Source of the DNA: Mangrovibacterium diazotrophicum
GTDB taxonomy: Bacteria; Bacteroidota; Bacteroidia; Bacteroidales; Prolixibacteraceae
Length of the DNA: 64,000 nucleotides
Direction of reading: 5' to 3'
NCBI RefSeq assembly: GCF_003610535.1
Contig: NZ_RAPN01000001.1
Coordinates: forward strand, 1,351,320-1,415,319
Below the pieces are notes generated by a model. The model was given only the letters and a program-made list of their open reading frames with translations, did no database searches and had not been told where the DNA came from. The first letter of the stretch is position 1. Every line of letters starts with the position of its first letter. The translations under genes were made by a program, and so were the position numbers. Shown here piece by piece: positions 15,682 through 32,238 of this stretch.

Positions 15682-15702
15682 TCCAAACCATCGATAAAAA
15701 CG

Positions 15703-15731
15703 AAAGCCCGGTTTAACGCCGGGCTTTTTGT
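15703..15731 (+). terminator. Rho-independent terminator between convergent genes
   Basis: AAAGCCCGG (15703-15711) pairs with CCGGGCTTT (15719-15727), 7-base loop, followed by TT and GTTTT. The minus strand also has a T-rich tail past the stem, so it may serve the convergent SusC-C gene too. Confidence 0.9.
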
Positions 15732-15783: not shown

Positions 15784-18648
15784 TTAAAATGTCACCCTCA
15801 AATTAAAGCCATACATCCGGCTTGCCGGCACACTAAAACTATCCATTGATTGGGAACCAAGTCCAGTGCTCAGCGCCATTTCCGGATCAAAAGGAGCCTT
15901 TTTATACAGGAAAAACAGGTTGTTCCCAACAAGCGACACAGAAGCAGCCTTCAGCGGCAGCCCTAACGATTCAACATTGAAATGATAAGCCAAAGCAGCC
16001 TGTGCCAAACGAATATTAGTACGATCGTAAAGGTAGTTTTCGCCGATGCCGTTTCGCCCTCCAACAGTCGTGTAATACAATTCGGGATCGATTTGAGTAA
16101 CGAGCGTTTCACCCTGAATACCGTCAATTGCCACGTAACCTTTGTCCCGGGCGGCAGCGCTGCGTTGGCTGACTCCGTAACCATCCAGCATCGATTCGGT
16201 TTGGCTGAATGCTTTACCGCCAATGTTAGCGTTTAGCTGCAGGTCGAGCGAGATATTTTTGTAGTTCAGGCTATTCCCCCAACCCAAACAGAAATCAGGA
16301 TTCAGGTTGCCTAAATATTCAATTGAGCTCGTTTTTCGCGGTGTCCCGGTTGACTCATCCAACACCAGTTGACCCGATTCATTCCGCAGAAATTTGTATC
16401 CGTACAAATCGCCGATTTTCCCACCGGCATACACGCGTGAATAATAGCCCTCGGTGCTCCCCAAATCAACGAAATAGCTTTCGTTATTAGATGCAAGATC
16501 TTTCACTTCACTCGTATTGCTATAGAAGTTCAGCTTTGTTTGCCAATTCAAATCAGAACCGGTAATCGGTTTTGCTGCGACTGTTGCTTCGAAACCTTTA
16601 TTGACAATGTCGCCCATATTCACAAAAATGTAGAGATAAAAGCTCTGCTGTGTGGCACTTGCCGATCTTAGAGAAGCCTGATCGCTGTTCGTTGTCTGGT
16701 AGTATGCCAAATCAACGCTCAAGTTATTATTCCAGAAACTCCAGTTGGTACCGGCTTCCCACGCTTTGATTTTTTCCGGACTCAAATCATCTGTTGGTCC
16801 TACCGAATTGGAACTGGTAATTGCTGAATGACCGTACAATTGCATCAAACTGGACGACAGATCCCGATAGGAACTACTTGCTGATATATACACTTGAGAA
16901 TGGCTGACTACCGCCGGAAAGTTGATCCACTCATTAAGCAGCGTGGACAATTTTGCGGTAGGAAACCAGTGCGCTTCATGTCCTTCCGAGATAATTGATG
17001 AAGTCACATCATTGCGAAGCCCAAGCTCCAAAATCAGGCTCCTGTTATAATCTAAAGCAACAGAAGCGTAAATTCCCTTTTGCTCCAACTCCCAATGATA
17101 CAAATCCTCCCGCCCAATATTCGAGGGCAAATTGTCTTCGGTAAAAATATTCGGACTATTCAACCCCGTTATTCCACTATCGATTTGATATCCATTGTTA
17201 AAATCAGTTTTCTTATAATTGGCTCCTGCAACGGCTTCCACTCCAAGCTTATTGAAACGGTGATGATAGGTCAGACTTCCGTCCAGGTAAATCAGCTTGT
17301 CTGTGTACTTTTTATACCGCCAGCGACCATTTGTGCCAATGTTGATGGGGTTTCCACCATCGTAATATTGCTGCTCAAAACTCTTGTCAGCGTAGTCGTA
17401 GCCCGAGCGAACCTGCAAGTCGAAATCACCCGAAAGCTTGAACTCGGCTGAAAGATTTGCCAGCAAGCGCTGCGTTTGATCTTCCTGTGGCTGTTTGTTT
17501 AACAACCAATAGGGATTCGATTGCAAATGGTCGTAGACAAACCAGTTTTGTTCATCGGCACTGGTATAGGTATTGGGGATACTGTAATTCGATTTGAAAT
17601 AGGAAAACGGCTGCCTGCCCAGCGCCATGTCATTTATCGGAACACCTCCGTTTCGCGGAAACAAATACAATCCGGTTAGCGGATTTAAATAGTAGCCGGT
17701 AGCATAGCGGTTTTTAACCGTTTCATCGGCGTAACTGATTCCGGCCTGAATATTCAATCGGTTTTGAAACAAATGACTAACATTCCTCAACGCGAAATTA
17801 TTCCGCTGGTATCGGTTGTTTTCAACAACGCCTTTCGCACTGGTATTGGCAAATGTGGCATACAAGGTGGAATTCTTCCCCCCACCACTAATTGCAATCG
17901 AATTCTGCGCAGTCATACCTGTTCCAAAGTAATCAGACACATAATTATCCGGGTAGTTTCCGGCAGTCATCGACCAACTTTCTGTTTCCGCGTCAGTACC
18001 GTATTTAAACTGCAATTCGGGCTCCCAAATCACCTTCTCAAACAAAGTAGTCGAATTTAAAATGACACGCAGCTGCTCATCTTTTGCTGTTTTGGTGGTG
18101 ATTAAAACAACGCCATTTGCAGCCTGGCTCCCATACAAAACCGCACCGCTCGTTCCTTTTATAAATTCAATCGAAGCAATGTCATCCGGGTTAATCTGCG
18201 AAAGTCCGTCGCCTTCATCCAATCCTCCCCACATATTAGGTTGTTCGCCAAGGTTGTTCACCATTGGAATTCCATCAATCACAAATAAAGGAGTGCTTTT
18301 CTCGGAAAGAGATCGCTGACCGCGCAAAGTAACGGCAACCGATCCACCAACGCCGGATGTACTGTTTAAAACCTCCAGCCCGGCAACAGTTCCTTGTAAA
18401 AAGTCAGCAACGTTCAATTGGGGAAATTTACGAAGAACATCCTCGTTTAAAGATTCTTTCAAATCCAACAAATCGACACGAAAATGCAGACTATCTGCTT
18501 TAAGACTATCATCCGCAAACGTTTGTACAGAAGATTCAACTGAACTTAATTTACTAGCGTGAGTTTCCGAAGCGGAAACAAAAGTGGGCACGATGCACAT
18601 TAAAATGATTAATGCACAAAGAGGTTTGGTCAATCTAAGTTTATTCAT
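15784..18648 (-). CDS. SusC/RagA-like TonB-dependent receptor without STN or carboxypeptidase-like domain (SusC-C)
   Basis: Outer-membrane receptor of 954 residues. A signal peptide ends near TFVSASETHA. Normally a carboxypeptidase-like regulatory domain (GxVxDxxGxPLPGV) follows, but here a short linker of about 60 residues leads straight to the plug, recognised by VADFLQGTVAGLEVLNSTSG, TPLFVIDGIPMVNN, and INPDDIASIEFIKGTSGAV. The barrel and C-terminus (GNNLFFLYKKAPFDPE, then MYGFNLRVTF) are close to those of SusC-B and SusC-A, so the three are paralogs. It is last in the locus, 195 bases after SusD and separated by a terminator; a promoter box of its own lies at 18718-18725. Function may be alternative uptake with the same SusD, or an accessory barrel. 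Confidence 0.88.
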   Translation of the reverse strand: MNKLRLTKPLCALIILMCIVPTFVSASETHASKLSSVESSVQTFADDSLKADSLHFRVDLLDLKESLNEDVLRKFPQLNVADFLQGTVAGLEVLNSTSGVGGSVAVTLRGQRSLSEKSTPLFVIDGIPMVNNLGEQPNMWGGLDEGDGLSQINPDDIASIEFIKGTSGAVLYGSQAANGVVLITTKTAKDEQLRVILNSTTLFEKVIWEPELQFKYGTDAETESWSMTAGNYPDNYVSDYFGTGMTAQNSIAISGGGKNSTLYATFANTSAKGVVENNRYQRNNFALRNVSHLFQNRLNIQAGISYADETVKNRYATGYYLNPLTGLYLFPRNGGVPINDMALGRQPFSYFKSNYSIPNTYTSADEQNWFVYDHLQSNPYWLLNKQPQEDQTQRLLANLSAEFKLSGDFDLQVRSGYDYADKSFEQQYYDGGNPINIGTNGRWRYKKYTDKLIYLDGSLTYHHRFNKLGVEAVAGANYKKTDFNNGYQIDSGITGLNSPNIFTEDNLPSNIGREDLYHWELEQKGIYASVALDYNRSLILELGLRNDVTSSIISEGHEAHWFPTAKLSTLLNEWINFPAVVSHSQVYISASSSYRDLSSSLMQLYGHSAITSSNSVGPTDDLSPEKIKAWEAGTNWSFWNNNLSVDLAYYQTTNSDQASLRSASATQQSFYLYIFVNMGDIVNKGFEATVAAKPITGSDLNWQTKLNFYSNTSEVKDLASNNESYFVDLGSTEGYYSRVYAGGKIGDLYGYKFLRNESGQLVLDESTGTPRKTSSIEYLGNLNPDFCLGWGNSLNYKNISLDLQLNANIGGKAFSQTESMLDGYGVSQRSAAARDKGYVAIDGIQGETLVTQIDPELYYTTVGGRNGIGENYLYDRTNIRLAQAALAYHFNVESLGLPLKAASVSLVGNNLFFLYKKAPFDPEMALSTGLGSQSMDSFSVPASRMYGFNLRVTF

Positions 18649-18717
18649 TTCAAGAGTCTCTTAAACTTTAAAGCAGGGGCACGATTGTGCTTCTACCTGC
18701 GTCCTGTTTTACAACTC

Positions 18718-18725
18718 CAAAGCTA
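18718..18725 (-). promoter_or_regulatory. Candidate -7 box for SusC-C
   Basis: CAAAGCTA on the plus strand reads TAGCTTTG on the minus strand, a full match to TAnnTTTG, about 70 bases before the SusC-C start and after the SusD terminator. No good -33 element seen. Confidence 0.4.
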
Positions 18726-18800
18726 ATCAGAGAACGGTCTTGTTGTACTTAATTAACACCAAGCTTAAAATATTTTTAAATTGAAAATGGGCTGGAAACA

Positions 18801-18825
18801 AAAAAAGCTCCCCGAGGGGAGCTTT
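18801..18825 (-). terminator. Rho-independent terminator after SusD
   Basis: AAAGCTCCC (18804-18812) pairs with GGGAGCTTT (18817-18825), loop CGAG, followed by a T run on the minus strand. It lies 18 bases past the SusD stop codon. Confidence 0.88.
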
Positions 18826-18843
18826 CTAAAAATTAGTTATATA

Positions 18844-20415
18844 TCAGAAGTTTGAACCACTACCAGTATCAAACCACAAGCGAGTACTAATTAAGTCGTC
18901 ACCTTTCATTGTTGCGACTGCAGCAGAGATCAATTCAGGGCTGTCAGAGCGCTCTGAATCAAGGAACGGCATACGTTTGATCCATTCATCATCAGGAATT
19001 ACACCCCAGTCAGAGTTGCTGTCGTTTTTGTATACAAGAGGCAATTTAGGATAGCCGGTACGACGGAAATCAGCCCAAGGTTCATTCGGGTTTGTAAACC
19101 CTGCGATCCATTTTTGAGTAATGATTTTTTCCAATTTTTCTTCGTTAGTTGCTGTTTCATCCCAAGCAACAGTCACAGTCGAACGAGAAACGAAATCGTT
19201 AATAGATCCGCTATAAACAGCATCATCATAATCAATCGGAGTACTTGTTGCATCAGCCAAATAATCATCGGCACCACCAACACCCCATTGAGAGAATGAA
19301 GCACGAACACCAGCGTCGTAGTTTGAACCAGCATCGCCGGCACCAGTCCAACCACGCAGAGAAGCTTCAGCCAAATCGAAATAAACTTCAGACGCAGTCA
19401 AATACGGTCTTTCAGTAACTGATTGGAAGCTTTCGTTGATCGTTGAATAATCTGAGTGGTCAGCTTTTGCTGTCAACTGCGCACCGTTGCGGATACCTTT
19501 GTAAGGGAAGTCAGGGTGGTCAGCATAAACAGACTCAGCAGTTGTTGCAGGTTCAAAGTAAGCTGCAATACGTGGGTCTTTCAATCCAACCAGGAACGAT
19601 TCCATACCTGCAGACATACGAGTGTCACCCCAGCTGAAACAGATAACTGACAAATACAGATCTGAACCATACAGTGAGATATTGAAGTTATCATCGTTTG
19701 AAGTAATCAAACCGGCAGCATCAGCGATCGCCTTTTCACCTTCAGTTTGAGCTAAATCAGGAGCAACGTTCGAGATACGGATTGCCAAACGCAAACGCAT
19801 AGAGTTGACCACTTTTGCCCAGCTTGCAACATCACCTGCATAGCTGGCATCGAATCTAGTCAAACCTTCATAGTCACTGTTAGCTGCAAAAACAGCCTGA
19901 ATATCATCCAAATCATCAAAGAAGGCATTGTAAAGTACTTCTTCGCTATCGTAGCTCACATCTTCTGAACCATAAGTAGAATAGATTACCGGACCGTGGT
20001 AAGTTGTCAAACGAGACACACCTAAGATACGGATCAACTTTGCCCAAGCAACGAACACGTCGTAACCACCTTCTTGTGCTATGTCAATTACCTGGCTGGC
20101 AGGAGACATCAAGTTGTTATAAATACGGTTCCAGTAAGTGTTCCAAGTGATGTAGTAAGTTGTGTTGTTTACACCACTAACGAACGGAGTTGGAGTCGCC
20201 ATATAGTCGCAATACGACTCTGAAACCAAGTTTTCCTCAACCTGGTGTCCGAAAATGTTAGCCAACAAAGTTGGATAGAATGAGCCAATATGGTTAAAAT
20301 CCTGAGTCAACGACTCATCAGTAATCTCGTACGGGTTAACGTTTGCCTCTTCAAAGCCATCTGTACAAGCGTTGGCGAAGAGTGCGACAATAAATATGAA
20401 TAGTATTTTTTTCAT
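18844..20415 (-). CDS. SusD/RagB-type nutrient-binding outer-membrane lipoprotein (SusD-like_2 family)
   Basis: Surface lipoprotein of 523 residues that would act as lid and ligand-binding partner of the SusC barrel. The signal MKKILFIFIVALFANAC ends in a lipobox with cysteine 17. The next residues, TDGFEEANVNPYEITDESL, are typical of the SusD-like_2 (PF12771) branch, as is the C-terminal WIAGFTNPNEPWADFRRTGY. Helical TPR-type repeats fill the middle. It starts 12 bases after the SusC-B stop, an operon arrangement. It is the only SusD gene for three receptors at this locus. Ligand unknown: no glycosidase, lyase or protease gene sits within the locus. Confidence 0.93.
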   Translation of the reverse strand: MKKILFIFIVALFANACTDGFEEANVNPYEITDESLTQDFNHIGSFYPTLLANIFGHQVEENLVSESYCDYMATPTPFVSGVNNTTYYITWNTYWNRIYNNLMSPASQVIDIAQEGGYDVFVAWAKLIRILGVSRLTTYHGPVIYSTYGSEDVSYDSEEVLYNAFFDDLDDIQAVFAANSDYEGLTRFDASYAGDVASWAKVVNSMRLRLAIRISNVAPDLAQTEGEKAIADAAGLITSNDDNFNISLYGSDLYLSVICFSWGDTRMSAGMESFLVGLKDPRIAAYFEPATTAESVYADHPDFPYKGIRNGAQLTAKADHSDYSTINESFQSVTERPYLTASEVYFDLAEASLRGWTGAGDAGSNYDAGVRASFSQWGVGGADDYLADATSTPIDYDDAVYSGSINDFVSRSTVTVAWDETATNEEKLEKIITQKWIAGFTNPNEPWADFRRTGYPKLPLVYKNDSNSDWGVIPDDEWIKRMPFLDSERSDSPELISAAVATMKGDDLISTRLWFDTGSGSNF

Positions 20416-20427
20416 GACACGTCTGTA

Positions 20428-23400
20428 TTAGAATGTAAATTTAAGGTTGAATCCGTAAGTTCTGGTTGCCGGAACATTAAAGTTATCCAACGATTGTGAT
20501 CCCAAGTCTGTACTCATACTCAATTCAGGATCGAACGGTGCTTTCTTGTATAAGAAGAACAAGTTATTTCCAACCACTGAGAATGATGCTGCTTGCAATG
20601 GCAAACCTAATGATTTAACGTCCAAATCATATGAAAGTGCCAATTGTGTTAAACGAATGTTAGTTCTGTCGTATACATAAGCTTCAGCAATACCGTTACG
20701 TCCACCTACAGTTGAGTAATACAGTTGTGGATCAATTTGAGTCATAACAGTACCAGATTCTTCGGTAATTCCGTTTACAGCTACATAACCTTTATCACGA
20801 GCATCAGCAGTACGTTGGCTTACACCATAACCATCCAAAATTGATTCTGTTTGGCTGAATGCTTTACCACCGATTTTAGCGTTGATCAGGAAGCTCAATG
20901 TGAAACGTTTGTAATCGAAGCTGTTGTTCCAACCTAAGCTGAAGTCAGGTTCCAGGTTACCCAGGTAAACCGGGCTGTCAGAAGCAGTTTTCAACGGAGT
21001 ACCATCTTCGTCCAACAAGATTTGGCCAGCGTCGTTTCTTCTGAATTGGATACCATACATATCACCGATTGAACCGCCTGTGTAAATACGGTTGATATAA
21101 CCCTCAGAACTACCTAAGTCGATGTATTTTGATGGCTCACCTGGGTACAACTCAACAACTTTGTTGTTGTTTTTAGAGAAGTTCAAAGATGAGTTCCATT
21201 CAAAGTCTGATGTTTTCACCGGTGTTGAGTTCAATACGATTTCAACCCCTTTGTTCACGATTTCACCAGCGTTGAAGTACATGCTTGTGTAGTAGTTGTC
21301 TTGTTTACTACCCGACAATGTTTTAGACAGCGCTTGGTTTGTACTTGTAATGTGGTAGTATGTGAAATCCAGACCTAAACGGCCATTGAAGAATCTCCAG
21401 TCAGTACCCAATTCCCAAGTTACTAATTGTTCTGGTTTTGCATCGGTAAACGGCTTCACAGTGTTACGGTCAACACTGCCACTTGCGTTGATGCTGTGGT
21501 TTACCTGGATCAAGCCCCATGGAACTTCGTTGTTCACTTGAGAAGCACTTGCACGAACTTTAGCGAAGCTGATGAACTCAGGCATTGTTACCATTTGGCT
21601 AAGGATACCAGTCAAACCGGCAGCTGGGTAGAAATAAGATTCGTTACCAGTTGCAGCCAAAGTAGAAGACCAGTCGTTACGACCTGATAAATCCAGGAAC
21701 AACATATCTTTGAAACCTAACTGAACGCTTCCGAATACACCTTCTTTGATGATTTTACCACCATAGATTGATTTAATCGCTACGTTATCCGGAACGTTTT
21801 GGAAATAAAATTCGTTAGGATACAACAAGTCATTTGTTCCGTTATCAACGCTAACCCCATCACCATAAACAGATTCCTGGTAGCTGGCACCTGCAACAGC
21901 GCTCAAACTCAAATCACCAAACTCGTTTTGGTAAGAGAAAATACCGTCAGAATACAACTGCTTGTCAGCAAATTTTTTGTAATTCCAACGCCCGTTTTCT
22001 GAGATATTTACAGTGTTACCACCGGCATAGAATTTTTGTTCGAATGTTTTGTTCGCATAGTCGTAGCTACCACGAGCCTGGAATTTCAATTTTTCAGTAA
22101 TCTGATAGTCTAATGTCAAACTGGCAATAACACGTTTTGTCAAGTCAGTTTTTGGCTGTTTGTTGATCAACCAATATGGGTTTGATTGGTTATCCGCTTT
22201 GATATGCCATTCTTGCCAGTTCATATTTCTTGACGTCATGAAGTACTGGTAATTGTCTTTGAAGTAAGAGAATGGCTGTGCACCCAAGCTTGAATCAGAC
22301 AACGGAGTTGCACCACTTCTTGGGAACAGGTACAAACCAGTCAATGGGTTCAGGTAGTAACCGGCACCAGGACGGTTTTTAGAACGTTCAGAAGTCAACA
22401 TTACGTTAGAAGTCAAAGTCAATTTATCATCTAACATTTTAGCAGATTGCTTGAATGTAACGTTGTGTTTTTGATAGCTGTTGTTTGGAACAACGCCACC
22501 AGCACCTGTATTTCCGTATGAGAAATAAGTTGACATTTTTTCGTTACCACTGCTCACAGAAACAGTGTTGATCAGGTTGTAACCTGTTTCGAAGAAATCG
22601 TCAACGTAGTCGCTTTCGTAGTTTCCTTTTGTGTATGACCAGCTTTCAGCTGTACCACCGTCAGCTCCGTAAGAGAATTGCAGATCAGGAGTCTCGATTA
22701 CGCTTTCGAAAATTGCACTTGAGTTGAAAGAAACAGTTGTTTTTCCTTCTTTTCCTTTTTTAGTTGTAATGATGATTACACCGTTAGCACCCTGGCTACC
22801 GTAAAGGATAGAAGCAGTTGCACCTTTCAATACACTGATGCTTTCAATGTCGTCCGGGTTCAACTGAGAAAGACCGTCACCTTCGTCAGTACCACCCCAC
22901 ATACCAGCTTGATCACCTTTGTTGTTTACCATTGGAATACCATCGATAACATACAACGGATCGCTTACCGAGTTCACGGATTTGCTACCACGCAATACAG
23001 TACGGGTAGAACCACCGGCGCCAGAGCTACTTTTACGAATCTCCAAACCGGCGGTTTTGCCACTCAAACCGCTCATGAAGTTAACGTCTCTTGCTTTCAT
23101 CATTTCCTCGCCACTAACCTCTTGCGAAGAGTAAGTCAACGTTTTAGATTCACGTTTGATACCCAAAGCGGTAACCACAACCTCATCTACAGCGATGTTG
23201 TTGCTCTTCAAAACTACATCAATTGATGATCTTCCGTCAACAGATACTTCCTGGGTTTCGTAACCCATAAATGAAAATACCAAAACTGCACCTTCCGAAT
23301 TCTGAAGATTGAAGGTATAATTACCATCAAAATCAGTAGCCGCACCGTGGTTGGTACCCTTTTCCAACACGGCCACACCCGGCAGCGGTTCATTGTCTCC

Positions 23401-23493
23401 CTCTGAGACAACACGTCCAGTCACGGTCTGTGCCATTGCCGACACGGTACCTAGCAGGACGAGTACGAAAAATAATAAGGACAACTTTTTCAT
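20428..23493 (-). CDS. SusC/RagA-family TonB-dependent receptor (SusC-B)
   Basis: Main SusC barrel of this locus, 1021 residues, paired with the SusD gene 12 bases downstream. I place the start at 23493 (MKKLSLLFFVLVLLGTVSAM), since an upstream in-frame start would put ten polar residues before the signal peptide. A carboxypeptidase-like domain follows (VTGRVVSEGDNEPLPGVAVL, AVLVFSFMGYETQEV), then the SusC hallmark EVVVTALGIKRESKTL and the plug with DPLYVIDGIPMVNNKG. No STN domain. The barrel ends in TRTYGFNLKFTF. The codon choice (GGT, CGT, AAC) is visibly more biased than in SusC-C and SusC-A, consistent with higher expression. A FecR gene lies 136 bases upstream. Confidence 0.94.
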   Translation of the reverse strand: MKKLSLLFFVLVLLGTVSAMAQTVTGRVVSEGDNEPLPGVAVLEKGTNHGAATDFDGNYTFNLQNSEGAVLVFSFMGYETQEVSVDGRSSIDVVLKSNNIAVDEVVVTALGIKRESKTLTYSSQEVSGEEMMKARDVNFMSGLSGKTAGLEIRKSSSGAGGSTRTVLRGSKSVNSVSDPLYVIDGIPMVNNKGDQAGMWGGTDEGDGLSQLNPDDIESISVLKGATASILYGSQGANGVIIITTKKGKEGKTTVSFNSSAIFESVIETPDLQFSYGADGGTAESWSYTKGNYESDYVDDFFETGYNLINTVSVSSGNEKMSTYFSYGNTGAGGVVPNNSYQKHNVTFKQSAKMLDDKLTLTSNVMLTSERSKNRPGAGYYLNPLTGLYLFPRSGATPLSDSSLGAQPFSYFKDNYQYFMTSRNMNWQEWHIKADNQSNPYWLINKQPKTDLTKRVIASLTLDYQITEKLKFQARGSYDYANKTFEQKFYAGGNTVNISENGRWNYKKFADKQLYSDGIFSYQNEFGDLSLSAVAGASYQESVYGDGVSVDNGTNDLLYPNEFYFQNVPDNVAIKSIYGGKIIKEGVFGSVQLGFKDMLFLDLSGRNDWSSTLAATGNESYFYPAAGLTGILSQMVTMPEFISFAKVRASASQVNNEVPWGLIQVNHSINASGSVDRNTVKPFTDAKPEQLVTWELGTDWRFFNGRLGLDFTYYHITSTNQALSKTLSGSKQDNYYTSMYFNAGEIVNKGVEIVLNSTPVKTSDFEWNSSLNFSKNNNKVVELYPGEPSKYIDLGSSEGYINRIYTGGSIGDMYGIQFRRNDAGQILLDEDGTPLKTASDSPVYLGNLEPDFSLGWNNSFDYKRFTLSFLINAKIGGKAFSQTESILDGYGVSQRTADARDKGYVAVNGITEESGTVMTQIDPQLYYSTVGGRNGIAEAYVYDRTNIRLTQLALSYDLDVKSLGLPLQAASFSVVGNNLFFLYKKAPFDPELSMSTDLGSQSLDNFNVPATRTYGFNLKFTF

Positions 23494-23629
23494 AGTTTGT
23501 TCAATTTTAAAAGATGAATACAATAAGATTCACTGAGTATAAGTATTAACTGATCTGTTTCTATTCTTTTTGTTACCGCACACATTTTGCGAAAAAATCA
23601 AATTGATGATTACTTCATTTTCATACCAA

Positions 23630-24796
23630 TTAAATTCGTGACATGATAATTTGATTTCCTTGCTGCTCGATCCGTGCGCTGACTATTTCAGCAACGATCT
23701 GCAAGAGTTCAGGCGCCGAGTTACCTAGGTCAAGATTTCCGGAGAACGTCTCTTTCTCCAATTCGGGGTCGGCAAGTTGAATATCCACGTTATAATAACG
23801 TGACACTTTGCGAACAATCTCGGGCAACGGCTCTCGCTCAAAAATGAGATAGCCTTTTCGCCACGATGTGTACAAGTCGGTATTTACTGCTTTTTGATTC
23901 AGGCTGGAATTCAACGGATTGTAGGACGCAAGATATCCGGGAATCATCTTCTCCTCGCTTTTACCAACAAACGACGTTCCCTGGTAACTCAATTCGACCG
24001 ATCCTTCAACCAAAACAGCACTGGTCTCTTTATCGTCTCGGTAAGCACTCACATTGAATACGGTGCCTAAAACCTCAACTTCCAGGTCTTTGGTTAAAAC
24101 ATGAAACGGGTGACCTTTGTCGTGAGACACTTCAAACATCCCCTCTCCTTCCAGGTAAACTTCTCTTTTCCCTTTATCAAAGCGAGCAGGAAAAACGAGG
24201 CGGGAACCTGAATTCAACCAAACTGATGAGTTATCGCTAAGCGTTACGTGAGTTCGTTTCCCAAAAGGAACAACCACTGTATTCATGGCCGGCTTTTGAG
24301 AATCGATGTCCTGGTTCACTTTTCCCGAATCATCAATATCTATTACATTACCTGTTTCCGAATAGCCAATTTCAGATTCTTTCGAATCGATGGCGATGGT
24401 CTCATCGTTAGATAAGATCAATTGCGTGTTGCCATTCACAGGAACCATTTCCCAGTTCTCGGCATAAGATCTCACGGCTGAATCCTGATTTGACAGGTAC
24501 AGGTAAGAAACACTCACAAAAATGAGGAAACTTGCCGCTGCGGTGAAGCGACTGATTATTAGTTTCCGGCGGTAGGCAACAATAGAGTGTTGAATTTTGT
24601 CGCCGAGCTGTTGTTTTTGCTTTGGCTTAAACCAGTTTTTGTTTCCGATCAAGGCACGGTAAATCAATCCGGCAAGGCTAAACGAACGGTCGTTTCGTCC
24701 TCCTTTGTTACCCTTCTCATCTCCTATTAGCTCCTCAACCAAGTGATCGTTTATCAGGATGTCTTCAACGTTATATTTAACCTTATCGTTTCTCAT
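23630..24796 (-). CDS. FecR-family anti-sigma factor (FecR-B)
   Basis: Inner-membrane protein of 388 residues with a membrane segment at about 83-102 (RFTAAASFLIFVSVSYLYLS). Its periplasmic FecR domain contains VVPFGKRTHVTLSDNSSVWL, EVYLEGEGMFEVSHDKGHPF and VLGTVFNVSAY, and the DUF4974-type C-terminus contains PEIVRKVSRYYNVDIQL. It is clearly paralogous to FecR-A (28445-29620), including the N-terminal DILxxDxLxxxL text. It has no sigma gene of its own: the gene before it is SusC-A and the gene after is SusC-B, which lacks the STN domain that normally signals to FecR. It may share the single sigma factor or the STN of SusC-A. Confidence 0.9.
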   Translation of the reverse strand: MRNDKVKYNVEDILINDHLVEELIGDEKGNKGGRNDRSFSLAGLIYRALIGNKNWFKPKQKQQLGDKIQHSIVAYRRKLIISRFTAAASFLIFVSVSYLYLSNQDSAVRSYAENWEMVPVNGNTQLILSNDETIAIDSKESEIGYSETGNVIDIDDSGKVNQDIDSQKPAMNTVVVPFGKRTHVTLSDNSSVWLNSGSRLVFPARFDKGKREVYLEGEGMFEVSHDKGHPFHVLTKDLEVEVLGTVFNVSAYRDDKETSAVLVEGSVELSYQGTSFVGKSEEKMIPGYLASYNPLNSSLNQKAVNTDLYTSWRKGYLIFEREPLPEIVRKVSRYYNVDIQLADPELEKETFSGNLDLGNSAPELLQIVAEIVSARIEQQGNQIIMSRI

Positions 24797-24990
24797 TACC
24801 GTGCTTAATCAAGAAAAGTTGCAGTTGCTTATTTCTGCGCATTTACAAACCATAAGCACGGTATGGCTAAAACATAGACAAGAAATTGTAACTTTTTTTA
24901 CAAGATTTTAACGACCAACAGTCAAGTCACTGAAAAACAACAATCTAAAAATTTATTTTTTCTTGATTTTTTATAAAAAAGAAAGGAAAC

Positions 24991-27900
24991 TTAGAACTGC
25001 ACTTTGACATTTAACCCAAAAGAACGGGTAGAAGGAACGCTGAAACTGTCAATAGCTTGATCCTGAATCAAGGTGTTCAGGGTAATTTCAGGATCGAACG
25101 GAGCGGATTTGTAAAGGAAAAACAAGTTCTGCCCAACCAGCGAAAGCTGAATATCTTTTATGCCCAGGTTTTCCGGAGAAAAAGAATAAGAAAAACGAAT
25201 TTGAGACAAACGAATATTATCCCGGCTGTAGCTGTAAACTTCTTTGATACCACTGCGCTCACCTACCGAGGTATAATATACCTGCGGGTCGATCTCGTTA
25301 ACCGGTGTTCCGTCGGGCAATACAGCATTGATGTTCACCGCGCCATTATCCCGGGCTACGGCCGTCCGCTTACTGACACCATAACCATCCAGCATCGATT
25401 CGGTTTGGCTAATCACTTTTCCGCCAAATTTGGCGCCAATCAAAAAATCCAACGACAAATTTCGATAGGCTATGCGATTATTCAGCCCCAGGTTATAGCG
25501 TGGATTTGAATTACCGATATATTCCTGTCGTTCGCTTTTACGTATGGTTCCGTTTTCATTCAACAAAATTCGTCCTCTCTCGTCGCGCTCAAATTTATAC
25601 GCATAAAGATCGCCAAACGAGCCGCCCTCGTCGATGATCAACTGGTATCCTTCGTTATCGGAAAGCACAATGGGATTCTTCAATTCATCGCTTAACTTGA
25701 CGATCTTATTCTGATTTTCGGAATAGTTGAATGTTGCCGTCCACTCGAAATTCCTCGTTCGAATCGGGCAAACGAAAACGGTTGACTCTGTTCCCTGGTT
25801 GGTTATTTTACCGGCATTCACATAGTAAGTGGTGTAACCCGATCCCGATGGCGCCGGAAGTTCAATAAACTGATCCAGGCTGACAACTTTGTAATACGTA
25901 AAGTCGAAGCCAAAGCGATTCTTCCAGAACTTAAATTCCGTTCCCAACTCGTAGCTCTGTATTTTTTCAGGTCGTAAATTTTCGAATGATTTGGTCGTGT
26001 TAAAAACCACACCAACCGGTCCGATGGAATGTTGTGGATTGACCCGATTAAACGGTACTTCGTTGGATACCCGCGAGAATGAACTTCTCAGTTTTCCGTA
26101 GGAAATAAATTCAGGTAATGTAACTAAGTCGGTGATAATACCGCTCAATCCAACCGATGGATAAAAATAAGAATCATTACCTGTGCCATACAAACTTGAA
26201 GCCCAATCGTTTCGACCGGAAATATCCAAAAACAATTTGTCATCGTAATTAAGCTGAACGTTTCCGAAAACAGCCTCTTTGATTAACCGACTCGACAAAA
26301 TCGAGTACACAATCACGTTATCTTCGATATTCTGGAAATAAAACTCATTCGGATAAAGAAGTCCGTCTGTGTCTGTATCAACCGTAAGCCCCTGCCCGAT
26401 TGTACTTTTTTGGTAGCTTGTTCCGAGTATCGCACTGACACTGAACTTCTCCCAATTATCATTATAAAAAAGAATGGCATCTCCGTAGATGAGTTGATCA
26501 TCCACCTTGGTGTAAACCCAGCGCCCGTTCGGGTGTACGTTCGTCACATTAGAGCCGGCCTTATGCTTTTCTTCATAGGTTTTAACGGCGTAATCGTAGC
26601 TGCCACGTACCTTCAAATTAAAATGATCGTTGAACCGAAAAGCGGCATTCACATTGCCGATAATTCTTTTAATCTGGTCTTCCCTTGGTTCGTTATTTAT
26701 AATCCAGTAGGGGTTCGACTGAAAATGGTCTTCAACAAACCAATTTTGAACGTACAAGTTTCTGTCTGCATTGAACACCTGGTAATTCTCTTTGTATTGC
26801 GAAAAATCCCGATCGCGCGGAAAGAAATAAAGTCCCGTAAGCGGATTCAGGTAATAACCAGCCATGTATTTATTTTTGACCTGTTCTTCGGTCAGCATGA
26901 TATTTGAGCCAAGTATCAACCGTCCCTCGAGTAGGTTACTCGACTGCTTAAAAGTCAAATTGATTTTCTCATATTTATTCTTCGGAATCACCCCTTGCGA
27001 CGACGTGTGTGCAAACGAAAAATAGGAAGTCGTTCGGTAGCTACCTCCACTCAGGCTGAGTGTATTTACCAGGTTGGTTCCGGTTTGAAAGAAATCCTTA
27101 ACGTAGTTGTCCTTATAATTTCCTTTTTCGTAGGACCAGCTTTCGGATGCGCCGTTTAGACTACCGTAGTCAAACTGAAGCTCCGGCAAATCTTTAATTG
27201 TCTCAACCGTGAAATACGAACTCAAATTAACTTTAAGAGCTCCAGGTTCACCTTTCTTCGTGTTGATGAGAATCACCCCGTTTGCCCCCTGACTGCCGTA
27301 AAGCGCTGCCGCATTTGCGCCTTTCAGTACGGTGATACTCTCAATATCGTCTGAATTAACCTGCGATAGTCCGTCTCCCTGGTCGCCACCATCAAAAAGT
27401 CCAAGCTGCCTGCCTTTACTGTTGACCATCGGAATCCCGTCAATGACAAACAACGGTTCGCTGGATGTACTCAACGACTTATTCCCCCGAAGCAAAACTT
27501 TTGAAGATCCGCCTGCACCCGATGCACTTCGGGTAACCTGCATGCCGGAAACCTTGCCGGAAAGACCTGAAACAAAACTGTATTCGCGACTGGATACTCC
27601 CTCGTAATCAATCGTCTGCTGAGCAAATGACAAGGATCTTTCATTCCGTTGAATCCCCAAAGCAGATACGACAACTTCCTCAACACCGAAGTTATCCGGC
27701 AACAAAACGACATTCAGAACCGAATCTGCGCCCAAACTCTCCTGAATGGTCTTCATTCCGACAAAAGAAAAGGTTAACAGTTTTGTGTCTGCAGGTATTT
27801 TCAGCAGGTAATGACCTCCAAAATTTGTCGTAACTCCATATGATTTTCCGAAAACAAACACGGAAACGCCCGAGATCGGATTTCCGCTTTCATCCGTCAC

Positions 27901-28269
27901 ATTTCCTTCTATGATCCTATTTTCCTGGCTGAGATTATCGGATTGAAGCGCTGATAACGCTTGGGAATCTTGTTCCTTGAGGATGATAATTTGTCGATCG
28001 AAAATTTTGTAGCTGAGGTCTGTTCCTTTTAACGCCTGATCCAACACTTCGTTGACTGTTCCCGATTCGACCGAAACGGACACTTTGCGTTTTGAGTCAA
28101 CCTGGCTGTCGTTATAGAAGATGATGTACTCGCTTTGCAACTGAATCAGCTCAAATATCTTTTTCAGGTTTGATTGTTTTAATTGAACCGTAACACTCCC
28201 CTCCTGAGCCCTTCCGGACAAGCAAGCACAAGCAACCAAAACAATTATCAGCAGGAGTCTCTTTTTCAT
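24991..28269 (-). CDS. SusC/RagA-family TonB-dependent receptor with STN domain (SusC-A)
   Basis: Receptor-transducer of 1092 residues. Signal peptide MKKRLLLIIVLVACACLSG, then an STN domain at about 22-97 (VTVQLKQSNLKKIFELIQLQ, VNEVLDQALKGTDLSYKIF) that would contact the periplasmic FecR. A carboxypeptidase-like domain follows (IIEGNVTDESGNPISGVSVF, FSFVGMKTIQESL), then EEVVVSALGIQRNER, the plug (EPLFVIDGIPMVNSKG) and a barrel ending in STRSFGLNVKVQF. The barrel carries the same GYYLNPLTGLYFFPRD segment as SusC-B and -C. FecR-A lies 175 bases upstream and FecR-B 194 bases downstream. No SusD gene follows directly, unusual for a SusC gene, so it may share the SusD encoded with SusC-B or act mainly as a sensor. 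Confidence 0.93.
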   Translation of the reverse strand: MKKRLLLIIVLVACACLSGRAQEGSVTVQLKQSNLKKIFELIQLQSEYIIFYNDSQVDSKRKVSVSVESGTVNEVLDQALKGTDLSYKIFDRQIIILKEQDSQALSALQSDNLSQENRIIEGNVTDESGNPISGVSVFVFGKSYGVTTNFGGHYLLKIPADTKLLTFSFVGMKTIQESLGADSVLNVVLLPDNFGVEEVVVSALGIQRNERSLSFAQQTIDYEGVSSREYSFVSGLSGKVSGMQVTRSASGAGGSSKVLLRGNKSLSTSSEPLFVIDGIPMVNSKGRQLGLFDGGDQGDGLSQVNSDDIESITVLKGANAAALYGSQGANGVILINTKKGEPGALKVNLSSYFTVETIKDLPELQFDYGSLNGASESWSYEKGNYKDNYVKDFFQTGTNLVNTLSLSGGSYRTTSYFSFAHTSSQGVIPKNKYEKINLTFKQSSNLLEGRLILGSNIMLTEEQVKNKYMAGYYLNPLTGLYFFPRDRDFSQYKENYQVFNADRNLYVQNWFVEDHFQSNPYWIINNEPREDQIKRIIGNVNAAFRFNDHFNLKVRGSYDYAVKTYEEKHKAGSNVTNVHPNGRWVYTKVDDQLIYGDAILFYNDNWEKFSVSAILGTSYQKSTIGQGLTVDTDTDGLLYPNEFYFQNIEDNVIVYSILSSRLIKEAVFGNVQLNYDDKLFLDISGRNDWASSLYGTGNDSYFYPSVGLSGIITDLVTLPEFISYGKLRSSFSRVSNEVPFNRVNPQHSIGPVGVVFNTTKSFENLRPEKIQSYELGTEFKFWKNRFGFDFTYYKVVSLDQFIELPAPSGSGYTTYYVNAGKITNQGTESTVFVCPIRTRNFEWTATFNYSENQNKIVKLSDELKNPIVLSDNEGYQLIIDEGGSFGDLYAYKFERDERGRILLNENGTIRKSERQEYIGNSNPRYNLGLNNRIAYRNLSLDFLIGAKFGGKVISQTESMLDGYGVSKRTAVARDNGAVNINAVLPDGTPVNEIDPQVYYTSVGERSGIKEVYSYSRDNIRLSQIRFSYSFSPENLGIKDIQLSLVGQNLFFLYKSAPFDPEITLNTLIQDQAIDSFSVPSTRSFGLNVKVQF

Positions 28270-28444
28270 CTTTTATAACAACAACAGAACCGCTATTTTT
28301 ATTCAGCCAATCCAATAAATATTATTGACTGACTGCGTTTTAATCGTCAAGGCTCGTCAATATCGTTGCCTTTCGGAGCTGTAATCTATAATTTTTGAGG
28401 AATTTCACAGGCCTGCAATTAATCTGCCTGCAGTGACGCGGATT

Positions 28445-29620
28445 TTAGGAATGAACATCCTTCCCTTTAAACAAAATACCATCGCTCGTTTCTTCCACTT
28501 GATTTCCTGTGATTTCTGAAATAATTCCCATAACCTCCAAGGCTGAATTACCCAAATCAAGGTAACCTGAAAAAGTTTCAGCCTCCAGGGCCGGGTCTAC
28601 AAACGAAATTCGCATATTGTAATACCGAGACAACTTTTTGGCAATCACCGACAACGGACTGTTCTCTAAAATCAAATAGCCATCTTTCCAGGATGTAAAC
28701 TGATCGGTATCAACCAACGATTGCTCAACCGATCTTTCAGTTGCATCAAAAACCGCCAAAGTACCCGGCACCATTTTCTGATTTACCGAAATCCCCCAAA
28801 GTTTACTTTTATATTCCAGTTCTACCGATCCCCGAACAAGTACGGTTTGAACGACTGAATCATCTTCATAAGCACTCACATTGAAACTTGTTCCCAATAC
28901 ACGAACATCCAACTGTTCTGTCAACACAGAAAACGGACGTTGTTCATCATGAGTTACATCAAATAAAGCCTCGCCCTGCAGGAAAACTTCCCGCTTGTCG
29001 GCACCAAATTTCACCGGATAAGTCAATTTCGATCCGGAATTTAGCCAAACCTCCGTTTGATCGGGCAATACTACATGACTGCGTTTGCCGTAGGGCACAA
29101 CCAAGGTATTGTAAGTTTGCGCCAGCTGAGCCAATGTTGTTTCAGTACTCATAGAGTCCTGAATATGAATCTCCTCTCCATTAGCAGAATAGCTAACCGA
29201 AGATTCGGTCGACATTAATTGTACATCTTCAGCTCCGGGAATAACCAGTCTCGTGAACTTAGTATTGACGGGTATTTCCGCCATCGAAGCGTATTGTCGT
29301 ATCGGTGACTGATTCTGCGAGTTCAACCAAAAAGTCAAGCCAACCAACAAAATCGCTATAGCTGCAACGGAACTTGTCCAAACGATTAACCGACTCTTTC
29401 GTTCCCGTTTAATTGATTCCTGAATTCGCTGTCCAACCAGGATTTTATCTGGTCCCGCGAACTCCTGCTTACCCGCCTTGAGTGCATCAACAATATTACC
29501 GGCCAATTCGAAATCAGCAGAACGTTCATTAACAGAAAAACTTTTTTTCATGAGCTTATCTATCAGCGCGTCTTCTGTCAAAATATCTTCAGCTTTTTTA
29601 TTTAAATCTCTGCTACTCAT
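28445..29620 (-). CDS. FecR-family anti-sigma factor (FecR-A)
   Basis: Inner-membrane anti-sigma protein of 391 residues. The N-terminal cytoplasmic part (1-125) carries KKAEDILTEDALIDKLMKKS; a membrane segment is at about 126-145 (SSVAAIAILLVGLTFWL). Periplasmic FecR motifs are NTLVVPYGKRSHVVLPDQTE, VWLNSGSKLTYPV, EALFDVTHDEQRPFSV and VLGTSFNVSAYED. The DUF4974-like C-terminus has LSVIAKKLSRYYNMRISFV. It lies 91 bases after the sigma gene and 175 bases before SusC-A, so it is the direct partner of both. The spacer 28270-28444 shows no clear promoter or terminator. Confidence 0.92.
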   Translation of the reverse strand: MSSRDLNKKAEDILTEDALIDKLMKKSFSVNERSADFELAGNIVDALKAGKQEFAGPDKILVGQRIQESIKRERKSRLIVWTSSVAAIAILLVGLTFWLNSQNQSPIRQYASMAEIPVNTKFTRLVIPGAEDVQLMSTESSVSYSANGEEIHIQDSMSTETTLAQLAQTYNTLVVPYGKRSHVVLPDQTEVWLNSGSKLTYPVKFGADKREVFLQGEALFDVTHDEQRPFSVLTEQLDVRVLGTSFNVSAYEDDSVVQTVLVRGSVELEYKSKLWGISVNQKMVPGTLAVFDATERSVEQSLVDTDQFTSWKDGYLILENSPLSVIAKKLSRYYNMRISFVDPALEAETFSGYLDLGNSALEVMGIISEITGNQVEETSDGILFKGKDVHS

Positions 29621-29711
29621 CTGTTCATTAAACGTTGACTTAAAAATTCAGGAGTACTGTGACTCACCACTTTTTAACACAACGCAATTTTATTTCTAAT
29701 AATGTTCAATA

Positions 29712-30311
29712 TTAAACTATTTTGCCCGATTTCTTCATGAAAATAAACAAAAACATCAGTTCCTGCCCTTCCATTTGTTCCCGAATCGTCTTAATTGACC
29801 GGTACACCGAAGTGCGGACTGATTCAACCGAAATATCCATAATTACCGCTATTTCGTGATAAGGCATCTCCAACTGAAATTTCAGATTCAGAATCTCCCG
29901 TTGCTTCTCCGGCAATTCGTTGATTAAACAGTTTACTTTCGACATTTGTGCTTGTTGCTCATCCAATTCATCCGGATCTACATTGTCATGCAGATTATCT
30001 GATTCGCTGGTCAAGTTCTCGGAATAAACCAATCGAAGACTTTTTTTCCCGGAAGTCTGAATTTTTCGTTTCAGCGACTTAAATAAATAATTGCGGATGT
30101 TGTCGTTGTCTGAGAGGTTTTTACGGTATTTGTACAAATCGAAAATAAGATCGTGCATGCAATCTTTTACCAATTCGTGGTCGCGCGTGAAGATTGTTCC
30201 GAAAGAAAACAGGATGTCCGCATAGAGATTGTAAAGCTCCTGAAACGCCTCAGCGTCACCGGACTTTATTCTCTTCCACAGAAAATAATCATGATTCCCC
30301 TCTATTTGCAT
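29712..30311 (-). CDS. ECF RNA polymerase sigma factor (sigma-70 family)
   Basis: Sigma factor of 199 residues heading the three-receptor locus. Region 2: DAEAFQELYNLYADILFSFG, with DCMHDLIFDLYKYRKNL; region 4: INELPEKQREILNLKFQLEM, with YHEIAVIMDISVESVRTSVY as the -35-binding helix-turn-helix. I use the start at 30311 (MQIEGNHDYFLWKRIK), which aligns with other family members; starts 13 codons further upstream are possible. It is the only sigma gene for the two FecR genes and three receptors downstream on the same strand. Confidence 0.9.
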   Translation of the reverse strand: MQIEGNHDYFLWKRIKSGDAEAFQELYNLYADILFSFGTIFTRDHELVKDCMHDLIFDLYKYRKNLSDNDNIRNYLFKSLKRKIQTSGKKSLRLVYSENLTSESDNLHDNVDPDELDEQQAQMSKVNCLINELPEKQREILNLKFQLEMPYHEIAVIMDISVESVRTSVYRSIKTIREQMEGQELMFLFIFMKKSGKIV

Positions 30312-30719
30312 ATCCAAAACCTTCAGTTTTATCCAAAGGAAAAGCATCATCTATAACCGAAAAGCCTTCCCCGGATACAAATAAATATTCGATAATTTGA
30401 TAAAATAGGGGCAAAGTTTCTTCCAAGCAACATGCAACAAAACAGCAACCAGCCACTTGCCCAAAAACAACTCAACCGAAGATTTTTACCCGCTTCTTCG
30501 GTTTAGCTTATCTAGTTTCTCGTTTTTAACGAACGCGAAATTAGAATGAAAAAATCAACTAGCCAACAAACTTATTGATTTATTGACCAATCAACTGTTT
30601 TTATGACACAAAAAATGAGGATTTAATATTAATTTGTCAGATTCATTTTCGAGTTTTCCTCAAAATGAATAGTACACCACCTATTTGTCCATGAAACAGT
30701 TGCAGGCATGTTCCAGCCG
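30312..30719. other. Non-coding spacer between pepD and the sigma gene, with hairpin
   Basis: 408 bases without a gene. AACCGAAGA (30474-30482) pairs with TCTTCGGTT (30495-30503), a 9-bp stem with a 12-base loop; on the minus strand GTTGTTTTT follows after three bases, so it may end pepD transcripts. CAAACTTA at 30567-30574 reads TAAGTTTG on the minus strand, a -7-type box that could drive the sigma operon with a leader of about 250 bases. The two readings compete, since the hairpin would then lie in the leader. Confidence 0.4.
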
Positions 30720-32183
30720 CTATTCTCCTACTACAACCATTCTTAAGACATCCAACAAATGCACCCAGAATTTTTCGGTCGATTCAATATGAATTCGTTC
30801 ATCCGGCGAATGGGCATTCCGAATTGTGGGGCCAAAAGAAACCATATCCAGTTCGGGATATTTTTCGAGAAACAAGCCGCATTCGAGTCCAGCATGAATA
30901 CTGCGAACAATCGGCTCCTGCCCAAAAAGGCGCTTGTATGACTGGGCTGCCACCCCAACGATGTAGCTGCCCGGGTTTGGCGTCCAACCGGGATAGCCTT
31001 CTGAATGTTTCGCCTCGGCTCCTGCCATTTCAAAAACCGAACGAACCATTTGGGCGGCCATTAACTTTCGGCTCTCCAACTCGCTTCGTTGACTTGTGGT
31101 AATTTGGACTTTCGTAGACGTTCCAAATTTTACCGAAGCCAAATTGGTCGAGGTTTCAACCATATCTTTCATGCGGGTACTCATCTCCAACACACCGTGC
31201 GGACAAGCCATCAGCAAGTTCAGAAATTTCTCCTGGCTGGCCTGCGTGAGCACTGTCGCTGGCAAACTAGTCGAATCGTGGTCAACCACCAGGTTGGGTT
31301 CGGTGCGCTGGTATTCGAATTCAACATCCGATGAAAAAATATTCAGCTCGGCAACCAATTGCTCCTTTTGAACGGAAGGAACAATAATCGTTGCAGATGC
31401 TTCGCGGGCAATCGCGTTTCGCAGGTTGCCCCCGTTGAATTCGACGATCCGAACGCCAAAATCGCGAATCGCCTGCCACAGGAATCGTGTCAGAATTTTG
31501 ATGGCATTCCCGCGTCCTTTATTAATATCGTCGCCCGAGTGACCGCCCCAAAGGCCTCGAACCATTATTTTCAAAGCGAATGATTTGCCGGGTGTTTTTT
31601 CACGCTGAAGCTCCAGTTCTCCTAAGGTGTCAATTCCACCGGCACAACCGATAAATAATTCGCCATCATCTTCCGAATCTAGGTTTAGCAGAATCTTCCC
31701 TTTCAAAAAATCAGGTTTCAAAGCAAATGCACCGCTCAAGCCGGTTTCTTCGTCCACCGTAATCAAACATTCCAGCGGGCCGTGCACCAAGCTTTTATCA
31801 GCCAACACAGCCAACTGCGCTGCAACACCAATTCCGTTGTCAGCACCAAGTGTTGTGCCATCTGCTTTTACCCATCCGTTGTCGATAATCGGCACAATCG
31901 GATCCTTTTCAAAATTGAAAGTTTTGTCCGAGTTCTTCTCGCAAACCATGTCCATGTGTGCTTGCAAGATCACTGTTGGCGACTTTTCCATCCCCGAACT
32001 TGCGGGCTTACGTATCAATACATTTCCAATCTCATCAGTTTCAGCATCAAGACCCTCCTGCTTCGCAAACTCGAGCAAAAACGCTCGTATCTTTTCTTCC
32101 TTTTTTGATGGTCTTGGTACTGCACAAATTTCTTCAAAGTAGTGCCAAAGTGGTTTCGGATTTAAACTTTCCAACTTTTTCAT
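30720..32183 (-). CDS. pepD: Aminoacyl-histidine dipeptidase (peptidase family M20C)
   Basis: Cytoplasmic zinc dipeptidase of 487 residues, matching E. coli PepD (485) in length. It cleaves Xaa-His and many other dipeptides. Metal-site motifs: QAHMDMVCEK with H76 and D78, TTLGADNGIG with bridging D115, and TVDEETGLSGAF with catalytic E145 and ligand E146; LLNLDSEDDGE provides the next ligand and RSIHAGLECG near the end the last histidine. The start at 32183 (MKKLESLNPKPLW) matches family starts and a promoter ends about 50 bases upstream; an in-frame ATG at 32234 would overlap that promoter. Single gene; no link to the SusC locus can be shown. Confidence 0.95.
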   Translation of the reverse strand: MKKLESLNPKPLWHYFEEICAVPRPSKKEEKIRAFLLEFAKQEGLDAETDEIGNVLIRKPASSGMEKSPTVILQAHMDMVCEKNSDKTFNFEKDPIVPIIDNGWVKADGTTLGADNGIGVAAQLAVLADKSLVHGPLECLITVDEETGLSGAFALKPDFLKGKILLNLDSEDDGELFIGCAGGIDTLGELELQREKTPGKSFALKIMVRGLWGGHSGDDINKGRGNAIKILTRFLWQAIRDFGVRIVEFNGGNLRNAIAREASATIIVPSVQKEQLVAELNIFSSDVEFEYQRTEPNLVVDHDSTSLPATVLTQASQEKFLNLLMACPHGVLEMSTRMKDMVETSTNLASVKFGTSTKVQITTSQRSELESRKLMAAQMVRSVFEMAGAEAKHSEGYPGWTPNPGSYIVGVAAQSYKRLFGQEPIVRSIHAGLECGLFLEKYPELDMVSFGPTIRNAHSPDERIHIESTEKFWVHLLDVLRMVVVGE

Positions 32184-32238
32184 ATCTGAATTCAATTTAC
32201 AGGCCATTTCGAATGTTTCAATTCTTACAGGCAAGCCT

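Follow-up and report, generated by a model that had tools for sequence, protein, structure and literature searches.

The window analysed here is a stretch of 64,000 nucleotides from the 5.8-Mb genome of Mangrovibacterium diazotrophicum. It carries, on its minus strand, a locus that encodes, in the order of transcription, an extracytoplasmic function (ECF) sigma factor, a FecR-family anti-sigma factor (FecR1), a SusC protein with an STN domain (SusC-A), a second FecR-family anti-sigma factor (FecR2), a second SusC (SusC-B), a SusD-like lipoprotein and a third SusC (SusC-C). Taken as one statement and read from the anatomy of the locus, we think it somewhat better than an even chance that this is a FecI/FecR-type surface-signalling locus of a SusCD importer, with two SusCs, SusC-A as sensor and SusC-B as pump, in place of the usual one that bears an STN, and that SusC-C is a separate gene whose product is most likely no TonB-driven importer working with this SusD. 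The conserved unit is sigma-FecR1-A-FecR2-B-SusD, without SusC-C.

The sigma factor (29712..30350, minus strand) is 212 amino acids long if started at 30350 and 199 if started at an inner ATG at 30311, matches Pfam Sigma70_r4_2 (1.1e-13) and has orthologues at the same place in the congeners G001, G002 and G003. It is followed on the same strand by FecR1 (28445..29620; PF04773 4.2e-18, PF16344 1.7e-11), SusC-A (24991..28269), FecR2 (23630..24796; PF04773 1.2e-17, PF16344 1.6e-15), SusC-B (20428..23493), the SusD (18844..20415; PF12741 7.2e-138, with 461.1 bits against a cut-off of 27 for this Pfam SusD-like family) and SusC-C (15784..18648), the intergenic gaps being 91, 175, 194, 136, 12 and 195 bp. 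By Pfam, the ECF sigma factor and FecR thus adjoin an STN-bearing receptor, which is the layout of FecIR-type surface signalling. SusC-A combines the STN (residues 48-97), an N-terminal extension (NTE; CarbopepD_reg_2, residues 120-201), a Ton box (EEVVVSALG at 197), a plug and a barrel, as judged by Pfam, alignment and domain scan; the barrel scored below the threshold of the Pfam barrel model, yet it aligned with that of SusC-B throughout. SusC-B has the NTE, a Ton box (DEVVVTALG), plug and barrel, and SusC-C, which has none of STN, NTE and Ton box, consists of a signal-peptide-like start, a linker of about 40 residues, a plug and a 22-strand barrel. All three exceeded the TIGR04056 cut-off of 368.25 bits, with 572.0 bits for SusC-A, 628.9 (2e-188) for SusC-B and 388.2 for SusC-C, the latter covering model positions 99-981 only. 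An earlier reading of this DNA (the original prediction) had described three SusC paralogues with differing N-termini, had quoted text common to them and had counted a single SusD; all of this was recovered, as were the two interleaved FecR genes, which it named nowhere, and the inner ATG of the sigma gene accounts for its upper limit at 30311. In SusC-A the STN comes before the NTE, whereas the available part of PMC7782687 states that the NTE lies ahead of the STN without exception.

In order to assess the conservation of this arrangement, SusC-C was used as query on 140 genomes of the family, 41 of which matched at 1e-160, and the loci were read in 36 of these 41 (all but G177, G194, G195, G196 and G197). 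The full order sigma-FecR1-A-FecR2-B-SusD was found in nine of the 36, from three genera: the own genome with G001, G002 and G003, then G057, G153 and G156, and finally G066 and G048. In all nine units, FecR2 lies between SusC-A and SusC-B, the SusD comes after B and not after A, and the STN is on A only. G171 has sigma-FecR-A followed by the end of the contig. Most other family genomes carried B-SusD alone or one sigma-FecR-STN-SusC-SusD set (G165, G073), where absences of the unit are weak for those with short contigs. Nine genomes outside the family were also read, and the single set was found in G399, G455 and G467.

Between SusC-A and FecR2 we located a conserved promoter-like element (24869..24897, minus strand), with a core around AAAAAGTTACAATTTCTTGTCTATGTTTT that is followed by CTTATGG. 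It is kept over the four congeners and could be aligned in all nine six-gene units, with several changes in G066 and G048. The window contains one match, compared to 0.01 expected; in the whole genome, a search at up to 2 mismatches gave one further copy, and a backwards control likewise gave one. This further copy, a near-copy at L245:3413 (G000:C1:1697413), overlaps the end of the sigma gene in a second sigma-FecR-STN-SusC locus and directly precedes the FecR there. We propose that the element is a sigma-dependent promoter of FecR2-B-SusD. Since it stands between A and FecR2 and is aligned in all nine units, it suggests a division of the locus into two modules, one for sensing (sigma-FecR1-A) and one for induced uptake (FecR2-B-SusD). 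SusC-A would bind a nutrient at the surface and signal, via its STN, through FecR1, and the sigma factor thereby freed would act at the element and raise the production of FecR2, SusC-B and SusD. SusC-B, with its Ton box and the SusD as lid, would then do most of the import, FecR2 might damp or tune the response, and SusC-C would be a separate neighbour in a transcription unit of its own. The original prediction had likewise made A the sensor and B the main pump, and this part agrees with the domain layout, the order kept in nine genomes and the position of the element; for its view of SusC-C as an accessory barrel or decoy, we found neither support nor contradiction.

The history of the two receptors was read from trees. 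In a tree of 49 rows, the A proteins form one clade of 10, apart from B, with a Shimodaira-Hasegawa-like approximate likelihood-ratio (SH-aLRT) value of 100, and two further trees gave 100 and 99; G180b, labelled A by best match, falls outside this clade. The three SusCs of the locus are close paralogues by tree, so that an origin from unrelated clades does not apply, and their likeness is far beyond chance: with SusC-C as query on its own genome, SusC-B scored 1.5e-290, SusC-A 1.6e-219 and the next SusC 1.8e-175. The presence of the STN requires seven changes on the tree, a count that leaves aside G394_1B, two contig-cut rows and the STN-bearing G180b_A, and G165, G399, G455 and G467 carry B-type SusCs that have an STN. 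The stepwise loss of modules from A to B to C that had been suggested as the history of the locus was therefore rejected. The FecR2 rows were grouped only weakly (71/71) and the FecR1 rows did not form one group, and it is possible that FecR and SusC were doubled jointly. Apart from this, G394 carries two SusC/SusD pairs head to head with equal search scores (L180, G394:C1:1-14000), which would reflect either duplication in inverted orientation or an artefact of the assembly.

SusC-C had been placed in one regulated unit with the other receptors, sharing their SusD and sigma factor, and this was not supported. The 195 bp that separate it from the SusD contain a strong intrinsic terminator (18802..18827, minus strand), an 11-pair stem with a T run (-17.8 kcal/mol, z -5.1), because of which membership of SusC-C in one regulated unit is doubtful. 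Counterparts stand at the same place after the SusD of G002 (z -3.6) and G001 (z -5.6); in G003 a stem is visible in the sequence, the fold having cut it and being uninformative. On its other side, SusC-C faces a convergent saccharopine-dehydrogenase-like gene across a two-way terminator (15702..15728), so that it has no SusD in the same transcription unit. This two-way terminator is also present in the congeners without SusC-C, its flank aligning to G001, G002 and G003 at 81-88% over 113-117 bp, and in these three genomes SusD and the dehydrogenase gene are only 157, 140 and 201 bp apart, with no SusC-C in between. The promoter-like element was not found before SusC-C, and the longest words that its upstream stretch shares with the others were 7-8 bases, at shuffle level; one TAnnTTTG word is present upstream, with no convincing -33 partner. 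A tblastn search of the 195 bp for a hidden NTE or Ton box gave no convincing match (best E 1.6). For SusC-C itself, no other match above 51% identity was found over overlapping sets of 149, 140, 393 and 395 genomes, with the best 2 to 6 candidates scored per genome, and when 84,980 species genomes were scanned for a pattern of six exact peptides, by which relatives may be missed, 43 loci were obtained, with at best 48%. That the order of the genes might be unique and incidental thus holds for the trio in what was searched and fails for the A/B pair.

SusC-C has also lost parts on which the growth on its glycan depends in a tested SusC, the Ton box being a loss beyond those originally described. 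By Pfam and alignment, PF13715 and a Ton box before the plug are present in SusC-A and SusC-B and absent from SusC-C. An NTE was found in 60 of 63 homologue rows, the exceptions being SusC-C and two contig-cut rows that still show a Ton box, which makes SusC-C the only intact row of the 63 without both. Six printed rows missed by a strict Ton box pattern show one by eye and SusC-C does not; the by-eye check covered these rows and not G394_1B, which the pattern also missed. In the rest of the own genome, the NTE was present at 59 of 60 plug-bearing loci, as collected by the SusC-C search and leaving out a 323-residue row with a stop and rows without plug region. The exception, L242:10356-12767 (G000 contig C2, minus strand), encodes an 803-amino-acid SusC-like protein with a plug only, without NTE and Ton box and under the TIGR04056 cut-off, and because of this protein SusC-C is not the sole such case. 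This gene is followed by its own 433-amino-acid SusD-like gene and then by a full SusC/SusD pair, and it lies near eutB/eutC-like genes. In the SusC-C search of the own genome, residues 1-65 gave no alignment with the other SusCs, whose matches start near the plug, save one weak row from residue 28. In the AlphaFold2 model (predicted local distance difference test score 78.4, predicted template modelling score 0.78), these residues are disordered and followed by a plug and 22 strands, as counted from DSSP.

The changes in the remaining part of SusC-C are not spread evenly. Of the columns conserved in 97% or more of 58 rows, SusC-C has lost 9 of 16 from strand 11 to loop 7, compared to 9 of 109 elsewhere (Fisher 2e-5; the block was chosen after the cluster had been seen, so that this p value is post hoc, and the loop numbers were counted on the predicted model). 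Identity between C and B is 0.27 in this block vs 0.51 elsewhere. In Bt1763, as described in the available part of PMC7782687, loops 6 and 7 are the hinges and make most of the SusD contacts in the open state, deletion of the Ton box gave growth like that of a SusD deletion, and deletion of the NTE abolished growth. As SusC-C has lost both Ton box and NTE and is changed at otherwise invariant positions in loops that correspond to this hinge, it is probably neither energised by TonB nor using this SusD in the normal way.

SusC-C may be a SusC-like barrel that does not transport but has retained a function, either in surface binding, as a decoy for a phage or toxin that uses SusC-B, or as partner of B in a mixed dimer; we regard this as a serious possibility, albeit short of probable. 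The gene is intact with a conserved core, and in C-terminal windows (766-954) SusC-C is nearer to B (identity 0.70-0.76) than A is to B (0.44-0.57). The second NTE-less, Ton-box-less SusC-like gene in the same genome also fits, as does the dimeric state of SusCD complexes in the available text of PMC7782687. Against an open pore, by contrast, speaks the retained plug. No gene conversion of recent date was seen in this similar stretch at the C-terminus, where 57-75% of four-fold sites differ.

Several points weigh against the sensor/pump reading with a separate SusC-C. The proposed promoter element was not found before FecR1. The terminator may be read through into SusC-C. Besides the post hoc choice of the hinge block, deletion of loop 7 alone was little harmful in Bt1763 according to the same part of PMC7782687, which weakens what can be drawn from this loop, and the place of SusC-C in the tree hangs on a very long branch of 1.7-1.9 changes per site. 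Finally, SusC-A may also import, because it keeps its Ton box and NTE, and it could use the same SusD. This leads to an alternative that we judge rather unlikely, namely that A and B are both full importers for different loads with one SusD and one sigma factor, the STN of A sensing its own substrate, and that labour is divided by substrate range only. It is in line with the plug and barrel of SusC-A and with the identity of A and B in the hinge block (0.55, not below the 0.52 elsewhere), by which SusC-A could still take a SusD. The position of the SusD behind B in all nine units and of the conserved element before FecR2-B-SusD argue against it without being decisive.

Two further alternatives concern SusC-C. 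It could be a leftover in decay, that is a duplicate under relaxed constraint and without a role, as would be consistent with its very long branch (the median end branch is about 0.1), the lost NTE and Ton box, the altered invariant residues and its presence in one genome only. We nevertheless hold this to be improbable, since the gene has 954 intact codons with a signal-peptide-like start where stops would be expected after a long period of relaxed constraint, since the model folds as plug and 22 strands, and since 99 of 116 columns invariant in 46 homologues are kept although synonymous sites are saturated vs B. Four-fold sites differ by 75% between C and B, which is like A and B (73%) and above B and the B of G002 (53%), and SusC-C is therefore no young copy; an origin as a young copy of its own B was rejected on this ground and by the approximately unbiased (AU) test (p 0.042). 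These results indicate that SusC-C is intact and old, a relative of B that evolved fast and no longer has NTE and Ton box. With both G180 rows included, it pairs with one of them, a suspected long-branch effect, and otherwise it falls within B near the rows of the genus; its protein make-up is unlike that of the alignment, and a search for clade-private residues by which it could be placed was uninformative, as none was fixed in the B rows of the genus. More doubtful still is a transfer from an unsampled relative with a SusD partner elsewhere: it would account for the presence in one of four Mangrovibacterium-group genomes and for the weak rejection of C next to its own B alone, but C with the genus B rows was not rejected (AU p 0.35), each of the six further SusD loci with PF12741 in the genome adjoins a SusC, and GC as well as third-position GC (0.467, within the 0.391-0.514 of eight other genes compared) lie within the range of its neighbours, for which reason a foreign composition was dismissed.

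The substrate of the locus can be approached from the SusD and the neighbouring genes. The nearest solved chain to the SusD is 8j0p, named chitin-binding AqSusD (7.9e-118), and no chitinase was found among the neighbour genes scanned. The B-SusD pair has GH92 genes beside it in G082 and a GH109-like gene nearby in G057. The sigma gene is directly preceded, on the same strand, by an M20 peptidase gene (30720-32234), likewise in G001, G002 and G003, which may point to a substrate of peptide or N-acyl type.

If SusC-A senses for SusC-B, the locus would offer a clean example from nature of signalling and import, two tasks that a single SusC usually combines, being separable by single-gene deletions. 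If SusC-C is kept without a Ton box, it would parallel in nature the deletion mutants of Bt1763 and raise the question of what use a SusC barrel has in the absence of TonB. We would only tentatively join the two into one picture, with SusC-C as a kept barrel that has left TonB-driven transport to serve as receptor, decoy or B partner, and A/B as a conserved sensor/pump pair in which an STN-SusC controls another SusC via one sigma factor and two FecRs. The parts are known; in open-access literature searches, we found no paper on this arrangement, on two SusCs paired as sensor and pump under a single sigma factor or on a SusC naturally without Ton box.

In the ferric-citrate system FecIRA of Escherichia coli, a sensor TonB receptor with an N-terminal signalling domain acts with FecR and a FecI-like sigma factor, like in this locus, where in contrast sensing and the main transport appear to be assigned to separate paralogous receptors. 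The levan SusCD Bt1762-63, in the available part of PMC7782687, has the same NTE (PF13715), Ton box, plug and 22-strand barrel, SusC-C naturally lacking both parts deleted there, whereas BT2264 is closer to SusC-B and SusC-C in both sequence and fold. BT2263-64 (PDB 5fq6-8) is the best solved match of SusC-C, by sequence (1.1e-54) and by Foldseek (5fq6, TM 0.82), but its SusD is a weak match to that of the locus (2.4e-10), which is nearer to AqSusD. Also close are the SusCD importers under ECF sigma/FecR control with an STN-SusC, as far as covered in the available parts of PMC7782687 and PMC3878776, which share with the locus a sigma factor, a FecR with periplasmic domain, an STN-SusC and a SusD, as in G165, G399, G455 and G467. 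Compared to these single sets, the locus described here has two FecRs and two SusCs, with the STN on A, the SusD behind B and the conserved element between the two halves.

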